The translations under genes and the position numbers were made by a program. The notes below the pieces were generated by a model, which was not told where the DNA came from, searched no databases, and was given only the letters and a program-made list of their open reading frames with translations. A stretch of DNA of 64,000 nt from an uncultured Pseudomonadota bacterium (GTDB lineage: Bacteria; Myxococcota_A; UBA796; UBA9615): contig CALAGR010000138.1 in the NCBI GenBank assembly GCA_937891735.1, positions 1 to 64,000 on the forward strand, in the 5' to 3' direction. Of the stretch, positions 19,986 through 34,530 are shown one piece after another (the first letter of the stretch is position 1; each line of letters begins with the position of its first letter).

Positions 19986-20585
19986 TCAATAAACAGGCTT
20001 CATCAGGTCCGACGGATCGGGCGAGGCGGGGGCCGCCGCGCCGTTCTCCTTGTTCCCGCGAGGAGCCACGATGGGGGCGCGCTTGGTCGTCGCCCGCACC
20101 GCCTCGTCCAGCGCGGTGGACATGCGCATCGCGCCATCGAACCGCACTCCCTCTTCCATCGTGATGATCGATGAGGTGATGTTTCCGACCACGACGGCGG
20201 GGGCCCGCAGATCACAGCGCGAGCGCGCGCTGATGTCGCCGTTGACCCGCCCGGCGATGACCAGGGCGGCCACGTCGATCTGGGCCTCGATCTCGGCGTC
20301 CGGGCCAATCTCGAGCGTGTCGTTGGAGAAGATCTCCCCCGTGAACTTGCCGTCGATCCGCACCCGCCCCTCGAAGGTCAGCTTGCCTTCGTAGATGCAG
20401 CCGCGGCCCAGGAACGCGTTCAGCTCATTGCTCGCCCGGCGGGGCGTGGGCTGGGCCTGCTGGGCCACAGGAGCGGGAGAGGGAAACGCCGTCGGCTCGG
20501 GCAGCGAAGAGGGCTCCGCCGGTGGCGGCGAAGCGAACAGGGTGGAGTCGCGGCGTCCGAACTTCATGGAGGGCTCCTGAGACAT
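19986..20585 (-). CDS. Bactofilin (polymer-forming cytoskeletal protein)
   Basis: NAFLGRGCIYEGKLTFEGRVRIDGKFTGEIFSNDTLEIGPDAEIEAQIDVAALVIAGRVNGDI; internal ATG at 20567 (MKFGRRD) follows a better SD. Confidence 0.93.
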   Translation of the reverse strand: MSQEPSMKFGRRDSTLFASPPPAEPSSLPEPTAFPSPAPVAQQAQPTPRRASNELNAFLGRGCIYEGKLTFEGRVRIDGKFTGEIFSNDTLEIGPDAEIEAQIDVAALVIAGRVNGDISARSRCDLRAPAVVVGNITSSIITMEEGVRFDGAMRMSTALDEAVRATTKRAPIVAPRGNKENGAAAPASPDPSDLMKPVY

Positions 20586-20612: not shown

Positions 20613-21500
20613 TCAGATGAGAGGGGATTCGAGGCGGCCGAGAAGCCGCTCCAGATCCTGGGACGAGTAATAGTCGAGGACGATCTTCCCGCCGCCACCG
20701 CGCGCACGCGGCTTGAGCTGGACCCGGGTGCCGAGGTGTCGCGCCAGCTTGTCCTGGACATCGACCAACGGAGTCGGCAATTCCTTGATGGTCTTGCGGG
20801 TCTTGCGACCCTCCTGGGCGCGGCGAACCTCCTCCTCCGTCTGGCGGACGGAGAGGCCTTCGCCGATGACCCTGGCGTACACGCTCAGCAGCGCGCTGTG
20901 GTCCGCGAGCCCCAGGAGCGCGCGACCGTGCCCCATGGAGATGGCCCCGCGCCCCAGCCCGTCGAGCACCTCTTCGGGCAGCTTGAGCAGCCGCAGCATG
21001 TTGGCCACGGTGGAGCGGTCCTTGCCGACCTTGCGGCTCAGCTCCTCCTGCGTGTAGCCGACGTCCTCGATGAGCTGCTTGTAGGCCTCGGCCTCTTCGA
21101 CGGCGTTGAGGTCCTCCCGCTGCAGGTTCTCGATGAGGGCCAGCTCCAGCGACTCGGTGCGACCCATGCGGCGAACGATCGATGGGATCGTGCGCAGACC
21201 GGCCTTGCAGCCCGCCCGGTAGCGACGCTCGCCCGCGACGATCTCGTAGCCGTTGTCGATGGGACGCAGCAGGATGGGCTGGATGACGCCCTTTTCGCGG
21301 ATCGAGGCGGTCAGCTCCTCCATGCCCTCGGCGGCGAAGTACCGACGCGGCTGGAACGGGTTGACCTTGATCTCGTCGATCGGGATGTGCACCACGGCGC
21401 CGCCGGCCAGCGCTGCGCGCGGACCTCCTTCGCCCTCTCCGGCGCGGGCGTCGGGGATGAGGGAGGCGAGGCCGCGTCCGAGGGTTCTTCGCTTCTGCAT
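20613..21500 (-). CDS. parB: Chromosome-partitioning protein ParB
   Basis: QPRRYFAAEGMEELTASIREKGVIQPILLRP...YEIVAGERRYRA...LIENLQREDLNAVEEAEAY. Confidence 0.96.
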   Translation of the reverse strand: MQKRRTLGRGLASLIPDARAGEGEGGPRAALAGGAVVHIPIDEIKVNPFQPRRYFAAEGMEELTASIREKGVIQPILLRPIDNGYEIVAGERRYRAGCKAGLRTIPSIVRRMGRTESLELALIENLQREDLNAVEEAEAYKQLIEDVGYTQEELSRKVGKDRSTVANMLRLLKLPEEVLDGLGRGAISMGHGRALLGLADHSALLSVYARVIGEGLSVRQTEEEVRRAQEGRKTRKTIKELPTPLVDVQDKLARHLGTRVQLKPRARGGGGKIVLDYYSSQDLERLLGRLESPLI

Positions 21501-21520: not shown

Positions 21521-22321
21521 TCAGGCGCTCATCGCCGACGACAACTTCGCCACGCGCACACCGTGCTTCGCGAGGAGCTCGCGGGCGAGATCCATGTAGG
21601 CGACGGCGCCCTTGGCCTGGATGTCGTAGAGGATGATCGGCTTGCCGAAGGACGGCGCCTCACCGAGGCGTACGTTGCGGGGGATGTCGGTCTCGAACAC
21701 CTTGTCGCCGAAGTGGCGACGCACGTCGGCGCTGACCTGCTGGTTCAGGCGGTTCCGCCCGTCGTAGAGCGTCAGGAGCACGCCTTCGAGCACCAGCCGC
21801 GGGTTCAGGCGCCGCTGGATCAGCCGGATGGTGCGGGTCAGCTCGCCGAGGCCCTCCAGGGCGTAGTACTCGGTCTGCAGGGGGATCAGCACCGAGTCGG
21901 CCGCCGTCAGGGCGTTGACCGTCAGCAGGCCGAGGCTCGGCGGGCAGTCGATGAGGATCCAGTCGTACTCCGCGTCCAGCGCGGTGACCTGGTCGGACAG
22001 CCGATGCTCCCGGGACAAGACGCTGGTCAGCTCGACCTCCGCGCCCACCAGGTCGGTGTTGGACGGCGCCACGTGGAGACAGGGCAGCTCGCTCTGCACG
22101 ATCGCTTCGCGGAGCGGCATCTCGTGCACCAGCACGTCGTACATGGAGCCCGTGGCCGCCTGCTTGTCGATGCCGAGGCCGGACGTGGCGTTGCCCTGGG
22201 GGTCCAGATCCACCAGCAGCACCCGCTGCTCAGCGGCCGCGAGGCACGCGCCGAGATTCACCGCCGTGGTGGTCTTCCCGACTCCGCCCTTCTGATTGGA
22301 GATCGCAATGATGCGCGCCAT
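21521..22321 (-). CDS. parA: Chromosome-partitioning ATPase ParA
   Basis: MARIIAISNQKGGVGKTTTAVNLGACLA deviant Walker A. Confidence 0.96.
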   Translation of the reverse strand: MARIIAISNQKGGVGKTTTAVNLGACLAAAEQRVLLVDLDPQGNATSGLGIDKQAATGSMYDVLVHEMPLREAIVQSELPCLHVAPSNTDLVGAEVELTSVLSREHRLSDQVTALDAEYDWILIDCPPSLGLLTVNALTAADSVLIPLQTEYYALEGLGELTRTIRLIQRRLNPRLVLEGVLLTLYDGRNRLNQQVSADVRRHFGDKVFETDIPRNVRLGEAPSFGKPIILYDIQAKGAVAYMDLARELLAKHGVRVAKLSSAMSA

Positions 22322-22547
22322 GAGCGCCTTTCCCTGTTGTCTGTGCTGACTCGAAACCGGTGACTGAGGTCCCGCGAAGTGCTCGCGGACGTTTCGAGTG
22401 AAAAGACACTAAACCAGCGTCTTTCGTTCGAGCAACGAGTTTATGGGAAAAAAAGACATGCACGGCGAAGAGCGTCGCCCAGACGTCGATCTGGCGTTCG
22501 AGCGCAGCTCTCTTGCGCGAGGCAATCAGATCGCCGCGGCGGCGGTC

Positions 22548-23222
22548 TCAGGCGGCGGGGATCAGGAGATCGTGCTGGGAGCCGGATCGGATCCGGCGTG
22601 AATTCCCATTGGTCTCGCGCCAGCCCTGTGGAGGCCACTGCGGCTGCTGCGCGAGCAGGCTCTCCGACGTCGCGATCACCGCCGCGGAGGCGCCCCATCG
22701 GCTCGCCTCCGCCAGCGCGTCCGGGGGCGCCGCGAACGCGCGGGACACGAACACCGGCGCCTCCAAGGAGAGCGTTCCACGCACGACCTCGGAGCGGCCG
22801 TGGTGCACCACCACCTCGGGCAGCTCCATCGCCCGGGCGGCCTCGCGCAGGAACGCAGCGCGCTTGCGGCGGGCCTCCACCAGGTGCACGGCCCGCGTGG
22901 GAAAGGCCGCGGCGAGGACGAGACCAGGCAGGCCCGAGCCGGAGCCCACATCCACGATGGGCCGCTCCGCGAGGTCGGCGCGGTCGAGGAGTCCGACGTC
23001 ACACCAGCAGTCGGCGAGGCCCCGGTCCAGGAGCTCGGCGCCGGCACGCCAGCCCACCAGCCGCTGCGCGCGACTCCACTGCGTCAGGGTCCGCGACCAG
23101 GCGGCGAGCCGCTCCGCCGCCTCGGGGGTGATGGGGTGGATCTCCTCGAGCACCATCCGGATCGCGTCGGGCGTCAGGCTCAGGCGCGCGGCTCCACGGC
23201 TTCGAGGCGCTCGGGGGCTCAT
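22548..23222 (-). CDS. rsmG: 16S rRNA (guanine527-N7)-methyltransferase RsmG
   Basis: [37 protein letters not shown]; lies between mnmG and parA. Confidence 0.93.
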
Positions 23223-25108
23223 GGGGCGTCCGGCCGCAGACCGCCGCGGATCCGCCCCGCCAGGAGGGCGAGCGCCGCGGGGGTCATGCCCGGGATGCGC
23301 GCGGCGTCGTCCAGGGTGGGCGGGGCCACACGCCCCAGCTTCTCCACGAGCTCGTGCCGCAGGCCGGGCACCCCTTCGAAGCGGAAGCCGACAGGGATCC
23401 CCAGGGAGCCCAGCGCGCGCACCCGGTCCACCTCGACCTGCTGGCGGTCGATGTAGCCCGCGTACCGGCACTGGATGATCACCTGCTCCAGGTCCTCGTC
23501 TGCCAGGGTCGGACCGGTGAGGTTGGCGGCCTCGAGCAGGGGGCCCATCTGGATGCCCCTGCGCTGGCTCATCTCGGCGAGCGTTCGGGCCCGGGACAGG
23601 TCCGGCTCACCGAGCCCGTGCAGCAGGGCGTTCACGGCGGGGCTCGGCTCCACGCGGGTGGTCTGCATCCAGCGCAGACCCCGGGTGATGGCCTCCTGCC
23701 GCCGCCCGAACACGGCCCAGCGTTCCTCGTCTACGAGCCCCGCCCGCCGGCCGATGGGGGTCAGCCGCAGATCCGCGTTGTCCTCCCGAAGGAGCAGTCG
23801 AAACTCCGCGCGGCTCGTGAACATGCGGTAGGGCTCAGCGGTCCCCAGGGTCGTCAGGTCATCGACGAGCACGCCGATGTAGGCCTCGTCCCGGCGCAGG
23901 ATCAGGGGCTCGCCCTCCTGCACCGCGAGGGCCGCGTTGAGCCCCGCGAGCAGCCCCTGTGCGGCCGCCTCCTCGTACCCCGTGGTGCCGTTGATCTGCC
24001 CTGCGAGGTACAGGCCCGGCAGCAGGCGGGACTCCAGGGTGCGGTGCAGATCCCGCGGGTCCGAGAAGTCGTACTCGATGGCGTAGCCGGGCCGGATGAT
24101 CCGGGCCTGCTCGAGCCCCTGGATGGTGCGGACCGCGTCCCGCTGGACCTGCACCGGCAGGCTCGTGCTGAAGCCGTTGGGGTAGACCTCCCGGGTGGCG
24201 AGCCCCTCCGGCTCGAGGAACAGCCGATGGGACTCCTTGTCCGGGAACCGGACCAGCTTGTCCTCGATGGCGGGGCAGTAGCGCGGCCCGCTGCCGCCGA
24301 TGCGCGCGTGCTCGCCGTATAGCGGGGAGTGCCTCAGACCGGCCCGGATCACGGCGTGGGTGCGGGCGTTGGTGTCGGTGATCGCGCAGCGGATCTGGGG
24401 CAGTCGCGGGGTCGGGCCCACGAACGAGAAGCGGCCACCTGGGTGATCGCCCTCCTGGGGCTCCAGGCGTGCCCAGTCGATGGTCCGGCCGTCCAGCCGC
24501 GGGACCGTGCCGGTCTTGAGCCGGCCCAGGCGGTGGCCCACGGCCTCCAGCGCGGCCGACAGGTGCGCCGCGGCGGGGGCTCCGTTGCCGCCGCCCGAAC
24601 GATCCGCGAGGCCCGTGTACAGGCGGCCCCGCAGGAACGTGCCAGTGGTGACCACGGCCGCCCGGCACCGCACCACGGCCCCGCCCACCAGGGTCACGCC
24701 AGCCACCCGTCCATGTTCCACGAGAAACCCCGAGGCCTCGGCCTCGATCACCGTGAGCCCGGCGCACGCGGCCACGGTCTGGCCCATGGCCCGCTGGTAC
24801 AGGTGCCTGTCCACCTGGGCCCGGGACGAGCGCACGGCCAGGCCCCGCCGGGTGTTGAGGTACTTGAACTGGATGCTGGTGGCGTCCGTGGTGCGCGCCA
24901 TCTGGCCGCCCAGGGCATCGATCTCACGGACCAGGTGTCCCTTGGCCTGGCCGCCGATGGCGGGGTTGCAGGGCATGCGGCCGATGCCCCCCGCCACCAG
25001 GGTCACCAGCGCCGTGCGCAGGCCCATCCGGGCGCAGGCCAGCGAGGCCTCCGTGCCGGCGTGGCCGCCGCCGATGACGAGGACGTCGAATGGGTCGCGG
25101 GTCCGCAT
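23219..25108 (-). CDS. mnmG: tRNA uridine-5-carboxymethylaminomethyl modification enzyme MnmG
   Basis: [29 protein letters not shown]...[24 protein letters not shown]. Confidence 0.97.
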
Positions 25109-25154
25109 GAGCGGGCATTTGCGCCTGTCCGTGGCAGGCCGTCAAGGGGTCTGG

Positions 25155-25168
25155 GTTTCACGTGAAAC
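25155..25168. promoter_or_regulatory. parS site 1
   Basis: GTTTCACGTGAAAC perfect palindrome. Confidence 0.93.
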
Positions 25169-25224
25169 GGTCCGGGGACGGCGCTGTCGCCAACATCGCC
25201 ATATATTCTTGATATTGTTGGTTT

Positions 25225-25233
25225 TGTGGATAA
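25225..25233 (-). promoter_or_regulatory. Perfect DnaA box in an AT-rich island
   Basis: TGTGGATAA (TTATCCACA on minus) within CATATATTCTTGATATTGTTGGTTTTGTGGATAACTATC. Confidence 0.7.
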
Positions 25234-25247
25234 CTATCGGGCGGTCT

Positions 25248-25261
25248 GTTCCACGTGAAAC
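25248..25261. promoter_or_regulatory. parS site 2 (one mismatch)
   Basis: GTTCCACGTGAAAC. Confidence 0.85.
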
Positions 25262-25311
25262 GCGCCCGCCGGGAGGCCCTGGATCCGCGTCCAGAAAGCA
25301 GAAAACAACGC

Positions 25312-25325
25312 GTTTCACGTGAAAC
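25312..25325. promoter_or_regulatory. parS site 3
   Basis: GTTTCACGTGAAAC perfect palindrome. Confidence 0.93.
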
Positions 25326-25522
25326 ACGCCGAATCGGTCCCGCTGGGGTGGGGTCTGGACCCTCCCGGATCGGGTTCCTTGTTTTCGCTAAACAAGGATT
25401 CCTGGAGGAATCCCCTCGCCCCCTGACCCGCACGGCTCGGGTCCTGGCTCCTACCTGCGGGCCGCCTCGTCCCGGATCTGGGACGAGGGAACGGGCTAGA
25501 CTCCCTCGCCTGGAGGAACCAC

Positions 25523-26518
25523 ATGCATCTGTCCCGAGTCCTGATCGCCGCTGCCCTGCTCTCCATCCCCGCCGCCGCCTCTGCCGGCACAGCCGTCGAG
25601 CTGCGCCACAACGGCGCCGGCGAGCACTGCCAGGGGGATGGCGGAAAGAAGGGGGCGAAGCTCCTGGAGAAGTTCGGCTCCGCCCTCGGCGGCGAGGACA
25701 CCCGCAAGGCCTGGAAGTCCCTGCGGGACGCGGGCGAGCCCGGCTGCGACGCCATCGCCGCGTGGCTCAAGGAGGGGGCTCCGGGCGAAGAGACCGCAGG
25801 CATCGCGGACGCCGCCGCCCTGCTCGTCAAGAACGGCAACGACAGCCACGTCGCGGCCGCCCTGATGTGGCTCGGCGACGAGGATCCGGACGTGCTGCGG
25901 GGGATCCTGGGCGCCCTGGAGTACCGGCTCGGGGTGCTCGATCCCGACTCCACCGCCGCCATCGCCGCCGACACCCGCAAGGGGGTTGGGGACGCCGCCG
26001 TCTCGGTGTTCATCGGCTACCACTCCGTCGGCACCATGAAGACCGTCTACGGCATCCCGGTGTACGAGGAGATCGCGTACTGGGGCTCGGTCACGGCGCC
26101 GCCGGACCACTACGTCAAGGCCGTGGGCACGCTGCTGCAGGGCGCGACGCCGGACCGCAAGGAGGACGTGGCGAAGTACGCCGGCCGTCACTACCGCGAG
26201 GCGCACACGGGGCAGGACGCCTGGGCCCCCTTCCTGGTGGCGATGGTCGATTCGATGGACAAGGAGTCCCAGAAGGCCGCCAACATCGCGGCCAAGCACC
26301 TCGCCTGGGGTGAGCCCGCGGGCATTGACGAGGCGGTCACCAAGATCATCTCTTCGGGCAACGCAGAGACGATGGAGCACTTCCTGGATGGCTTCGAGGA
26401 GCGCCTGGGCGAGGGCCGCGGCACCGCCGCCACCATCGCGCGTCTGGAGACGATCGCCGCCGCCGGCGACAAGCGCGCACCCAAGATCGCGAAGAAGTTC
26501 GCCAAGAAGGTGCAGTAG
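25523..26518 (+). CDS. Secreted HEAT-repeat-like hypothetical protein
   Basis: Signal peptide MHLSRVLIAAALLSIPAAASA; SD GGAGG 6 nt upstream; helical repeats. Confidence 0.65.
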   Translation: MHLSRVLIAAALLSIPAAASAGTAVELRHNGAGEHCQGDGGKKGAKLLEKFGSALGGEDTRKAWKSLRDAGEPGCDAIAAWLKEGAPGEETAGIADAAALLVKNGNDSHVAAALMWLGDEDPDVLRGILGALEYRLGVLDPDSTAAIAADTRKGVGDAAVSVFIGYHSVGTMKTVYGIPVYEEIAYWGSVTAPPDHYVKAVGTLLQGATPDRKEDVAKYAGRHYREAHTGQDAWAPFLVAMVDSMDKESQKAANIAAKHLAWGEPAGIDEAVTKIISSGNAETMEHFLDGFEERLGEGRGTAATIARLETIAAAGDKRAPKIAKKFAKKVQ

Positions 26519-28561: not shown

Positions 28562-30321
28562 GCCTTGCTCCCAGCGGGCACGGGCTCTCCGTGGCCCCGC
28601 TTGATCACCCACTGCTGCAGGATGCTGAGGATGTTGTTCACGAAGATGTACATCACGAGGCCCGAGGGCAGCGTGAACATGATCACCCCGAAGAACAGCG
28701 TCATGAACCGCATGATCTTCTGCTGCGAGGCGTCCATGGTGGGGCTCTCGTTCATCTTCTGGGTGATGTACATGGTCAGCGACATCAGGACCGGGAACAG
28801 GCCGATGGGGTCCTGAAGGGTCAGGTCGCAGAAGTACAGGAACTTGGCCTGGTACAGATCCGCCGACATCCACAGCACGCGGTAGAGCGCAAACCAGATC
28901 GGCATCTGCACGACCATGGGCAGACAACCGCCCATCGGGTTGACCCCGCGCTCCTTGAACAGCTCCATCATCTCCTTGTTGAGGGCCTCCTTGTCGCTCC
29001 CGTACTTCTCCCGCATCGCGGCGAGCTCGGGGTTGAGGTCCTGCATCTGCTTCATGGAGCGGTACTGCTTCTGCGTCAGCGGGAACAGCAGCAGCTTCAC
29101 GGTCACGGTCAGCAGGATGATGGAGAGCCCGTAGCTGCCCAGCAGGCCGTACAGGAACTTGAGGAAGGACAGGATCGGGATGGCGACGAGCCCGAAGATG
29201 CCGAAGTCCACCGACGAGGCCATGCGCATCTCGGCGCCTTCGAGCCCTTCGAGCGTCTTGGGGCCGGCCCACAGCTTGAACGGGTAGCTGACGCTCTCAC
29301 CGACCGCGAGCAGCTTGGGCGCCACCGTCACGGTGGACGCGAAGAGGCCCGCCTTCTCGTCCGCGACGGTGAACGCGGCCGTCCCCGTCATGGGCTCCGC
29401 CGGCTCGAGGCCGAGCATGAAGTACTTGCCGCCGACGCCCCACCAGCTCATCTGGCCGATGAACGGCAGCTCACCCTTCTTGCGCAGCTTCGCTTCGTCG
29501 GCGATCTCGTGGTCGTCGTCCACCTGCAGGTGGGTCTCGACCTTCGGTCCGTAGCGGCTCTCCGCCTCCGGCATGAGGTCGACGACGCCGAAGCTCGGGG
29601 TCACCTCCCGCGCCGTTCCGCCCACGTTGCGGATCGTCACGGTGTAGTCGGTGACGAAGCCGTCCTTGGGGAAGGCGTAGCTCTTCGTGATCTCGATGCC
29701 GTCGCGCGTGGTGGCGAACACCGCCGCATCCACGCTGCTGGAGACCACGGCGTACTGCACCGAGTCGCTGGCGATCCCGCGGCTGTCGATGCCCACGGGC
29801 AGGTGCGCGATGTCCGGGGCGCGGATCACGTCCACGAGCCCGTGGACCTCCTCCTCGGAGCAGGCCAGGGTGAACGGGCCGACATCCTCGCCCTTGATCT
29901 TGTGCAGCAGCCAGGTGGGCAGCCACGGCGTCTCGGGGGGCTGGGCGAGGTACCCGTCGAGCACGTACTCGGCCGGCCCGCCTCCGAGGCTGGACCACTT
30001 CGCCCCCACGCCGCTCCACCCGAACTCGAGCTCGCGCTTCGGGGCCTCGGGAACGACGGCGGCCACCGCGGGAGCCGCGCTGTCGTCGTCCCCACGGGCG
30101 CTGTCGTCGTCGTCGGCCTCTGCCGGCGCCGCGCCGTGGCTCGCGGGGCTGGGCGTGGCGGAGTCCACCACCGCCGTGGCCTCCGGATCGACCGGCTCTT
30201 CCGGTGCCTTCGGAGGCGGGAAGACGAAGCTGTAGAAGAAGAAGACAACCATGGCCGTGAGGCCCATGGCGACCAGCATTCGCCGGTCCTGGTGGGCCTG
30301 TTGGTTCGGGTCGAGATCCAT
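28558..30321 (-). CDS. yidC: Membrane protein insertase YidC
   Basis: MDLDPNQQAHQDRRMLVAMGLTAMVVFFFYSF; QYRSMKQMQDLNPELAAMREKYGSDKEALNKEMMELFKERGVNPMGGCLPMVVQMPIWFALY. Confidence 0.96.
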   Translation of the reverse strand: MDLDPNQQAHQDRRMLVAMGLTAMVVFFFYSFVFPPPKAPEEPVDPEATAVVDSATPSPASHGAAPAEADDDDSARGDDDSAAPAVAAVVPEAPKRELEFGWSGVGAKWSSLGGGPAEYVLDGYLAQPPETPWLPTWLLHKIKGEDVGPFTLACSEEEVHGLVDVIRAPDIAHLPVGIDSRGIASDSVQYAVVSSSVDAAVFATTRDGIEITKSYAFPKDGFVTDYTVTIRNVGGTAREVTPSFGVVDLMPEAESRYGPKVETHLQVDDDHEIADEAKLRKKGELPFIGQMSWWGVGGKYFMLGLEPAEPMTGTAAFTVADEKAGLFASTVTVAPKLLAVGESVSYPFKLWAGPKTLEGLEGAEMRMASSVDFGIFGLVAIPILSFLKFLYGLLGSYGLSIILLTVTVKLLLFPLTQKQYRSMKQMQDLNPELAAMREKYGSDKEALNKEMMELFKERGVNPMGGCLPMVVQMPIWFALYRVLWMSADLYQAKFLYFCDLTLQDPIGLFPVLMSLTMYITQKMNESPTMDASQQKIMRFMTLFFGVIMFTLPSGLVMYIFVNNILSILQQWVIKRGHGEPVPAGSKA

Positions 30322-31246: not shown

Positions 31247-31720
31247 GACCACCGCCTCGCGCAGCGCGGCGCGCCCCACGGCTCCAGGATTTCCGCCTCC
31301 TTATATGACGCGCGTGCGAGCGCGCACGACACCTTGTGGGCCCATCGGTCCCCCCCGTGGATCGACGGGCTGGGATCGGCAGGGCGATCCCGGCTCGGGC
31401 AGAACCGGTGAGGGTCACTCCATTCGAGCCCTCCGGGCGAGCTGGTCCTGGTACCGAACAAATAGCGGACGCAAGTACCTGCCAACGACACCAGAAACGC
31501 TCGGAAGAACCGACCCCCTTCTTCCCATCAAGGATCCGGCCAACGCGACTTCGCGACGGAATTCGGCGCCACTCCCGGCGCACATTCCCACACGCCCAGA
31601 ACGGCTCCACGCCTGTTGGAATCGCTCTACAGAGCCCGTTGCGGGGCTACAGGTCGCGGAGTAGCTTCAGAGTCCCGGCGGCCTCCGGGACGCAGCCACC
31701 AACGCCAAAGGAAATCATCG

Positions 31721-33064
31721 ATGCTTCGTTCCACATGGGACGAGGTCTGCGCCAGGGTTCGTCGTGAAGAAGACCCCTTCTTCCACGATCCCTGGCTCAA
31801 CCGCCTCTCATTCATCGCGTCAGACGAGGACAGGATCATCCTGGCCACGCCGAACCGGCTGTACGTCGAGTGGATCCAGGAGAACCTGGAGCCCCGGCTG
31901 CACGGGCACATCCACGCGATCGCGGACCGTCCCTACGCCATCGACTACCAGCTCGACGATGCGGCCGGCTCGGAGCGAAACGCCTTCCAGCCGGAGGCCG
32001 CCGCCCCCGCCAGCCTGTCCACCGGATCCCGGGACACCCACCTCAACGTGCGCCAGGTCTTCGCGACGTTCGTCGTCGGCAGCGGAAACCAGTTCGCCAC
32101 CGCAGCCTGTCAGAACGTGTCCGACAACCCGGCGCGGAACTACAACCCGCTCTTCCTGTTCGGCGGGGTGGGGCTGGGCAAGACCCACCTCCTGAACGCC
32201 ATCGGGAACCGGATCCGCCAGCGGGATCCCCGGGCCCGGATCCTGTACCTGTCCGCGAACGACTTCACCACCGAGCTCATCAACTGCATCCGGTTCAAGC
32301 GGATGGAGGAGTTTCGGGAGAAGTTCCGTCGGAACTGCGACGTCCTGCTCATGGACGACATCGAGTTCCTGGCGGGCAAGGATCGGACGCAGGAGGAGTT
32401 CTTCCACACGTTCGAGGCCCTGCACGGCAGCGGACGCCAGATCGTGGTCACCGCAGACCGCTACCCGAAGGACATCGGCGGTCTCGAGGAGCGCCTGCGC
32501 AGCCGGTTCGACTGGGGCCTGGTGGCGGACATCCAGCCGCCGGACACCGAGACCAAGGTCGCGATCCTGCGCCGCAAGGCGGACGACGAGGGCATCGCCC
32601 TGCCCAACGAGGTGGCGTTCTTCGTCGCCCGGCACGCCACTGGAAACGTACGGGAGCTCGAAGGCACCCTCACCCGCCTGCTCGCCATGAGCAGCTTCCA
32701 CGCGGCTCCCCTGGACGTGGAGTTCGCCCGGCGCTCGCTGCAGGGCTATCTGCAGGTGGAGGAGCGCTCGACGAACATCGACACCATCCAGAGCGGCGTG
32801 GCCCGGTTCTTCGGGGTCAAGGTGCAGGACCTGAAGGGCCCACGGCGCACGCGCCAGATGGTCGTGCCCCGACAGATCGCGATGTACCTGGCGCGGCAGC
32901 ACACCGGCCTGTCGCTCCCCGAGATCGGAAAACGCTTCGGAAACCGGGATCACACCACCGTCCTGCACGCCGTCAGGAAGGTGAAGGCGACCCGGACGAA
33001 GGACTCCGGCTACCGAACCCGCCTCGAGGGAGTGACTCGCTCTCTGGGGCTGCCCGTCGAATAG
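31721..33064 (+). CDS. dnaA: Chromosomal replication initiator DnaA
   Basis: FLFGGVGLGKTHLLNAIGNRI; C-terminal LPEIGKRFGNRDHTTVLHAVRKV. Confidence 0.97.
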   Translation: MLRSTWDEVCARVRREEDPFFHDPWLNRLSFIASDEDRIILATPNRLYVEWIQENLEPRLHGHIHAIADRPYAIDYQLDDAAGSERNAFQPEAAAPASLSTGSRDTHLNVRQVFATFVVGSGNQFATAACQNVSDNPARNYNPLFLFGGVGLGKTHLLNAIGNRIRQRDPRARILYLSANDFTTELINCIRFKRMEEFREKFRRNCDVLLMDDIEFLAGKDRTQEEFFHTFEALHGSGRQIVVTADRYPKDIGGLEERLRSRFDWGLVADIQPPDTETKVAILRRKADDEGIALPNEVAFFVARHATGNVRELEGTLTRLLAMSSFHAAPLDVEFARRSLQGYLQVEERSTNIDTIQSGVARFFGVKVQDLKGPRRTRQMVVPRQIAMYLARQHTGLSLPEIGKRFGNRDHTTVLHAVRKVKATRTKDSGYRTRLEGVTRSLGLPVE

Positions 33065-33296
33065 CCGCGACAACGAGTAGGATCCCGCCGGGAGCGTCGC
33101 TGGGAGCTCTCATGGCATTCGCACACCCTCGACCCCCTGTGTACAACCCGGTGGACATGCTGTTGAAAGGCCCGTGGACGACTTGTTAACGTTCGCACCC
33201 GCACGCGACCCGGCCGGTTGTCCCCGACAGAATCCACGGCACCTTCCCCCGACCGCACACAGGCATTCAATCAACACAGTCAGCGACTTAGAGCCC

Positions 33297-33345
33297 CTAT
33301 CCACAGAAACAGGGCTCTCCAACAACAACAAGATCAATCAATAGA
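33297..33345 (+). promoter_or_regulatory. Candidate oriC core: near-consensus DnaA box followed by an AAC-type trinucleotide AT-rich stretch
   Basis: CTATCCACA GAAACAGGGCTCTCC AACAACAACAAGATCAATCAATAG between dnaA and dnaN. Confidence 0.5.
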
Positions 33346-33399
33346 AGATCTCCTTTCTGAGATCGTGGTTCTCAGGAGCCATCGGGAGCGCGCAGCCTC

Positions 33400-34530
33400 A
33401 TGGAATTCCGCATCGCCAAGGACGAGCTGATTCGAGCCCTCTCTCGCGTCCAGGGCATCGTCGAGAAGCGCTCGACGAATCCGATCATCGCCAACGTGCT
33501 GTTCGAGGTCTCGAGCGACGGCATGAAGGTCAGCGCGACGGACACCGAGGTGTCCCTGATCGGCCATTACGCCGTCGAGTGCATCCAGCCCGGCAGCCTG
33601 ACCCTTGGCGCACGCCAGCTGTACGAGATCGCGCGGCTGGTCCCCACGGACAGCGTGTCGTTCCGGTTGCCCGCCGGCTCGTTTCTGATGGAGGTCAACT
33701 CCGGCAAGGCGCAGTTCAAGGTGCTCGGACTGCCGGCCGACGACTTCCCGCCGATCCTGCCCGCCGACGTGGACGTGGGCGACGGGCTGGAGATCGAAGC
33801 CGCGGACCTCAAGGCGATCATCGACAAGACCCTGTTCAGCATCTCGTCGGACGACACCCGGACCGGCCTGAACGGCGCCCACGCCGAGTCCATCGAGCTG
33901 CCCGGAGGCCGAACCCACCTGCGGTTCGTGTCCACCGACGGACACCGTCTGTCCCTGGCCGGCCGGCCCCTGACGGGCACCTGGACGGCGCAGCGCTCGG
34001 TGCTGCTGCCGAAGAAGGGCCTCGCGGAGCTCCGCAAGCTCGTGGATGTGGGCGATGGCCCCTGGCGCATCGTGCTGGGCGAGACCCAGGCGGTCTTCAA
34101 CCGCGGCACCACCGCCTTCTCCATGCGTCTGCTGGAGGGGGACTTCCCGGACTACAAGCAGGTCGTGCCCGCGGGTTGGCAGCGGCGGATCCTGGTGGGT
34201 CGGGGGCACCTCGTCCAGGCTCTGCGCCGGGTCAGCATCCTCGCTTCGGAGAAGTCGCACCCCGTGCGCTTCCACATCACCGGCGGGACCCTGGTGATCA
34301 CCGCCAAGCAGCCCGAGGCCGGCGAGGCCCGCGAGGAACTCGAGGCCACGGTCGAGGGCAGCGATCTCGAGATCGGCTTCAACGCCCGCTACTTCCTCGA
34401 TGCGCTCGGTGAGATGACCACGGACGACGTGGCCATCGAGATCGGTGACTCGCTGTCGCCGTGCCTGGTCCGTCCCGGAGATGGGGACGCGGACGAGCTG
34501 TTCGTCGTGATGCCGATGCGGCTCGAGTAG
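33400..34530 (+). CDS. dnaN: DNA polymerase III beta subunit
   Basis: MEFRIAKDELIRALSRVQGIVEKRSTNPIIANVLFEV; C-terminal LFVVMPMRLE. Confidence 0.97.
   Translation: MEFRIAKDELIRALSRVQGIVEKRSTNPIIANVLFEVSSDGMKVSATDTEVSLIGHYAVECIQPGSLTLGARQLYEIARLVPTDSVSFRLPAGSFLMEVNSGKAQFKVLGLPADDFPPILPADVDVGDGLEIEAADLKAIIDKTLFSISSDDTRTGLNGAHAESIELPGGRTHLRFVSTDGHRLSLAGRPLTGTWTAQRSVLLPKKGLAELRKLVDVGDGPWRIVLGETQAVFNRGTTAFSMRLLEGDFPDYKQVVPAGWQRRILVGRGHLVQALRRVSILASEKSHPVRFHITGGTLVITAKQPEAGEAREELEATVEGSDLEIGFNARYFLDALGEMTTDDVAIEIGDSLSPCLVRPGDGDADELFVVMPMRLE

Follow-up and report, generated by a model that had tools for sequence, protein, structure and literature searches.

In Myxococcus xanthus, the bactofilin gene bacM is located directly after parAB, and the ParABS system of this organism is organised by BacNOP, not by BacM (PMC5703909). 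In the same organism, several parS sites are clustered near the origin, some kb upstream of parA (PMC3899335). In Caulobacter crescentus, DnaA is reported to act at the centromere and DnaA boxes are found together with parS (reviewed in PMC6399470), and in Bacillus subtilis one site, parS-359, is placed inside parB (spo0J) (PMC4442127). Here we describe the region upstream of mnmG in a stretch of 64,000 nucleotides from an uncultured bacterium, which was analysed as a whole and is called the window. This locus is very probably the ParABS centromere of the chromosome, situated in the leader of an mnmG-rsmG-parA-parB-bactofilin run, with the origin of replication 7.7 kb off and with an AT-rich island that would be a lineage-specific spacer or promoter. 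Order and identities of the genes in this run, as well as the statement in a preliminary description that it reads away from the island, were confirmed by Pfam matches. The genes concerned are the following:

19986 to 20585, minus strand: bactofilin gene, directly downstream of parB (Pfam PF04519)
20613 to 21500, minus strand: parB, with N-terminal, HTH and C-terminal dimerisation domains (Pfam PF02195, PF17762, PF23552)
21521 to 22321, minus strand: parA (Pfam AAA_31/CbiA)
22548 to 23168, minus strand: rsmG (gidB; Pfam PF02527)
23219 to 25108, minus strand: mnmG (gidA; Pfam PF01134)
25523 to 26518, plus strand: open reading frame of 331 amino acids between mnmE and mnmG, no Pfam match
31709 to 33064, plus strand: dnaA (Pfam PF00308, PF08299)
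33400 to 34530, plus strand: dnaN (Pfam PF00712)

To the right of the 331-aa open reading frame, mnmE, yidC and other genes are encoded on the minus strand and are followed by the plus-strand genes dnaA, dnaN and gyrB. In relatives, mnmE and mnmG are direct neighbours, and the 331-aa open reading frame was not seen between them there.

A cluster of parS sites had been claimed upstream of mnmG, and three sites, with cores at 25155, 25248 and 25312, indeed occupy exactly 171 bp. A further, degenerate site that had escaped the preliminary description was encountered inside mnmG:

24715 to 24728: degenerate fourth parS, GTTCCACGAGAAAC, inside mnmG, in codons for FLVEH
25155 to 25168: parS 1, GTTTCACGTGAAAC, 47 bp upstream of the mnmG ATG
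25248 to 25261: parS 2, GTTCCACGTGAAAC
25312 to 25325: parS 3, GTTTCACGTGAAAC, aligned with ATTTCACGTGAAAC in the genus mate (locus L081)

Compared to the 16-mer TGTTTCACGTGAAACA, parS 1 and parS 2 show two mismatches each and parS 3 shows one. Three exact matches to the 14-mer GTTYCACGTGRAAC were counted in the 7.87-Mb assembly as a whole, each of them in the cluster upstream of mnmG, versus about 0.04 expected from base composition; as the assembly is fragmented (542 contigs), further parS sites could be missing from it. Terminator-like matches in the intergenic region upstream of mnmG correspond to the palindrome of parS 3 itself. The locus thus combines palindromes with a GTTYCACGTGRAAC core (three exact, one degenerate), parA and a complete-domain parB nearby, and a distance of 7.7 kb between the cluster and the dnaA-dnaN gap, as known for ParABS centromeres near the origin, and the parS cluster is an ordinary, well-formed chromosome-segregation site of known type. 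Judged from known ParABS biology and from the intact domains, ParB from the adjoining gene run would load on the three intergenic sites and on the weaker site inside mnmG and would spread along the DNA from parS, while ParA would move the origin region. As in M. xanthus, parAB is followed by a bactofilin gene and clustered parS sites lie near the origin. However, M. xanthus has 22 parS sites in 3 kb with the consensus TGTTCCACGTGGAACG, whereas the window holds three to four, mostly GTTTCACGTGAAAC, which are located immediately upstream of and inside mnmG.

The fourth site shares with B. subtilis parS-359 its position within an origin-proximal coding gene, but it lies in mnmG and is degenerate. 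In the genus mate, the identical 14-mer GTTCCACGAGAAAC is present at equal distance from the mnmG start codon. The MnmG protein is variable around FLVEH, and other family members lack this peptide. Moreover, the codons employed are rare in these genes (TTT 6%, GAA 10%, CAT 6%), and the joint probability of exactly those five codons, given the amino acids and the local codon usage, amounts to 7e-5. Rare codons, together with conservation at the nucleotide level within a variable stretch of the protein, point to selection acting on the DNA at this intragenic site. In one family of the same class (f5), mnmG contains a perfect parS, GTTCCACGTGGAAC, about 1.2 kb downstream of its start codon; the position of this site is shared and the site is conserved in seven genomes of several genera (L087, L103, L105, L110, L112, L114, and L115). 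In the literature, we found nothing direct on parS in connection with mnmG, nor on intragenic parS.

In members of the family that retain parAB at this locus, parS sites were found beside or upstream of the mnmG start, with two one-mismatch sites in L081 and two sites each in L082 and L085. Similarly, L086, which belongs to another family, has parAB at the locus and one parS. In contrast, the family members L083 and L084 have neither parAB nor parS at mnmG, so that parS appears to be kept or lost together with parAB. No exact parS was detected in the genomes to which L083 and L084 belong (G003 and G005), and only a distant ParB-like match was noticed elsewhere in each of them. Apparently, the chromosomal ParABS system has been lost or replaced in these two genomes.

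Between parS 1 and parS 2 lies the island, which forms part of a segment peculiar to this lineage:

25109 to 25269: lineage-specific intergenic segment that holds parS 1 and parS 2, the island and the DnaA box and is not covered by the local alignment with L081
25199 to 25241, minus strand: AT-rich island, about 70% AT over 40 bp, possible promoter of the mnmG operon
25225 to 25233, minus strand: DnaA box, TTATCCACA

The region from 25109 to 25400 gave no match in the genus mate. The local intergenic alignment with L081 starts near 25270 and takes in parS 3, with a score of 78 versus a null maximum of 53, and the island was not found in relatives, the genus mate included. The island had been presented as the most AT-rich stretch. 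At a scale of 30-40 bp, however, it ranks second after a richer stretch at 43.9 kb, and at the 100-bp scale the richest AT in the window is in the dnaA-dnaN gap, at 33264. A likeness of the island to words of E. coli oriC was considered and dropped as unsupported. We read the island as a lineage-specific spacer that most likely contains the promoter of mnmG-rsmG-parA-parB-bactofilin; since no promoter passed in a strict sigma-70 scan of the intergenic region upstream of mnmG, we infer this promoter role from known ParABS biology.

Alternatively, the island could belong to an origin element, second or bipartite, that lies upstream of mnmG like those of E. coli and many gammaproteobacteria; its position, its AT-richness and its perfect DnaA box might speak for this. 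Evidence on where replication starts points to another region, at which a box array, an AT-rich stretch, conservation and a skew minimum (sharp in G005) coincide:

33065 to 33399, plus strand: dnaA-dnaN intergenic region, probable oriC, with TTGTACACA (33138, minus strand), CTATCCACA (33297, plus strand) and AT-rich CAACAACAACAAGATCAATC

Skew was computed on contigs, not on whole genomes. For contig C21 of G005, the cumulative GC skew had the shape of a clean V, lowest at 22228, and the keto minimum was at 22238; both are about 100 bp from the dnaA-dnaN gap (22334-22692), with the mnmG start at 29480. In the contig of the window, where skew is weak and noisy, GC skew reaches its lowest value at 33970, which is 570 bp beyond the dnaA-dnaN gap, and the keto minimum is at 40.8 kb. 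Contig C58 of the genus mate (G004) showed no skew minimum at dnaA-dnaN and was uninformative, and a simple left/right split of mean skew worked for C21 only. Genes co-oriented with replication amount to 15-16 of 17 for an origin at dnaA versus 12 of 17 for one at mnmG, and gene divergence is centred on dnaA, not on mnmG. Between dnaA and dnaN, the window and L081-L084 have a common layout in which TGTGTACAA or CTGTGGA is followed by TGTTGA, GTGGAC and TGTTAA, then by a box ending in CCACA and finally by an AT-rich stretch, and 68 bp of this gap are 90% identical to the genus mate. DnaA-trios read 3'-GAT-5' (PMC6669920), and as expected for them, CTACTA occurs after late oriC boxes in L082 and L084; in the gaps of the window and of L081, CAACAACAA stands in its place. 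The dnaA-dnaN intergenic region, 7.7 kb from the parS cluster, is therefore the probable oriC, and replication would start there.

By comparison, the region upstream of mnmG holds a single box in the window, even when one-mismatch matches are counted, and no array. The matches listed in a search for MnmG-related loci were almost all gammaproteobacterial, and 53 such loci served as a positive control for mnmG-type origins. In 42 of these 53, mnmG is preceded by at least three boxes; the mean is 4.3 boxes (2.0 exact), and none of the 53 has a parS there. After the island box there is no 3'-GAT-5' DnaA-trio (CTA), which is a weak test since CTACTA is likewise missing from the dnaA-dnaN gap of the window. 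The island and its box are both missing in the genus mate, and skew, gene orientation and conservation all favour dnaA-dnaN. Therefore, although the locus resembles an E. coli-type oriC in lying beside mnmG with a TTATCCACA box in AT-rich DNA, it differs by the missing box array, by the missing support from skew or gene orientation and by the presence of parS, and we consider an origin element at this place extremely improbable.

The consensus DnaA box reported for the island is nonetheless present, at a distance of 56 bp to parS 1 and of 14 bp to parS 2. The window contains no second TTWTNCACA, with 0.21 expected in total. When the 414-bp intergenic region was shuffled by dinucleotides, about 1% of the shuffles held such a word; its presence in this region is modestly significant if post-hoc choice is left out of account. 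We regard it as quite possible, within the preferred reading of a ParABS centromere, that the parS cluster is real and that the box arose by chance in an AT-rich promoter spacer. By our own estimate, base composition predicts about eight copies of TTATCCACA for a genome of such size, which is the number observed, and the mnmG-upstream box is not conserved. On the other hand, the reversed control has no copy at all in the genome, such words are rare in the shuffles, and of the seven other copies, five belong to intergenic clusters with several boxes; in view of the reversed control and of this clustering, chance as the sole reading of the eight copies was given up. Counts of the looser TTWTNCACA overall are not clearly enriched (11 versus 6 for controls in G000, the genome of the window, and 6 versus 10 in G004), so that the enrichment is confined to the TTATCCACA form.

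Several box clusters were observed away from both dnaA and mnmG. A convergent pair of TTATCCACA, 101-103 bp apart, occurs in the interval between iscS and an adenosine-deaminase-like gene (L153:9804-9913 and L160:4011-4122). It is conserved between G000 and its genus mate and is a candidate auxiliary DnaA site; iscS-iscU were identified by Pfam (class V aminotransferase, NifU_N). A class II (B12-dependent) ribonucleotide reductase gene is preceded, at a distance of about 350 bp, by a cluster of three DnaA-box-like sequences (L155:2249-2280), and a pair of DnaA boxes upstream of a histidine kinase gene (L156:803-831) has a counterpart at the orthologous position of the genus mate (L159:3708-3727). 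The TTATCCACA clusters upstream of these genes indicate that DnaA probably has binding sites outside oriC in the G000 lineage, and conservation of the iscS and kinase clusters in the genus mate indicates that real DnaA sites are recognisable across such a distance. The box upstream of mnmG is neither clustered nor conserved.

These observations bear on the proposal that the island contains an auxiliary DnaA site or a promoter controlled by DnaA and ParB. Such a role has a low probability: the box has the full consensus and other TTATCCACA copies look real, but it is a singleton and lineage-specific. In the stronger form of the proposal, DnaA on TTATCCACA would act either on the centromere or on the mnmG-parAB promoter and couple initiation to segregation. 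The closeness of the box to parS 1 and parS 2 and the contrast between eight copies and none in the reversed control are in favour of such a dual role, and the C. crescentus precedent (Mera et al. 2014, as reviewed in PMC6399470) keeps it alive at low probability. As in C. crescentus, a DnaA box, here a predicted one, adjoins parS near but outside the probable main origin; in that organism, however, binding was shown experimentally, whereas the window offers a single box, known from sequence and not conserved. The exact box was absent upstream of mnmG in the genus mate and in the other class members scanned, with one-mismatch versions in L126 and L130. The same genus mate does retain the iscS and kinase clusters, and the looser word shows no clear enrichment in either genome. 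We therefore judge the dual role unlikely, and a recently evolved DnaA switch within the centromere, by which the single box would control ParB loading or mnmG-rsmG-parAB transcription outside Caulobacter, appears a little less probable still. With the locus read as a ParABS centromere, the single box may serve DnaA as a regulatory or accessory binding site without making an origin.

In summary, centromere and likely origin of an uncultured lineage can be placed 7.7 kb apart, and a false lead of a second origin is removed. Within one family, parS and parAB vanish together from the mnmG locus. If functional, the DnaA box in the island would make this locus a second, compact case in which to test how DnaA acts at a centromere.
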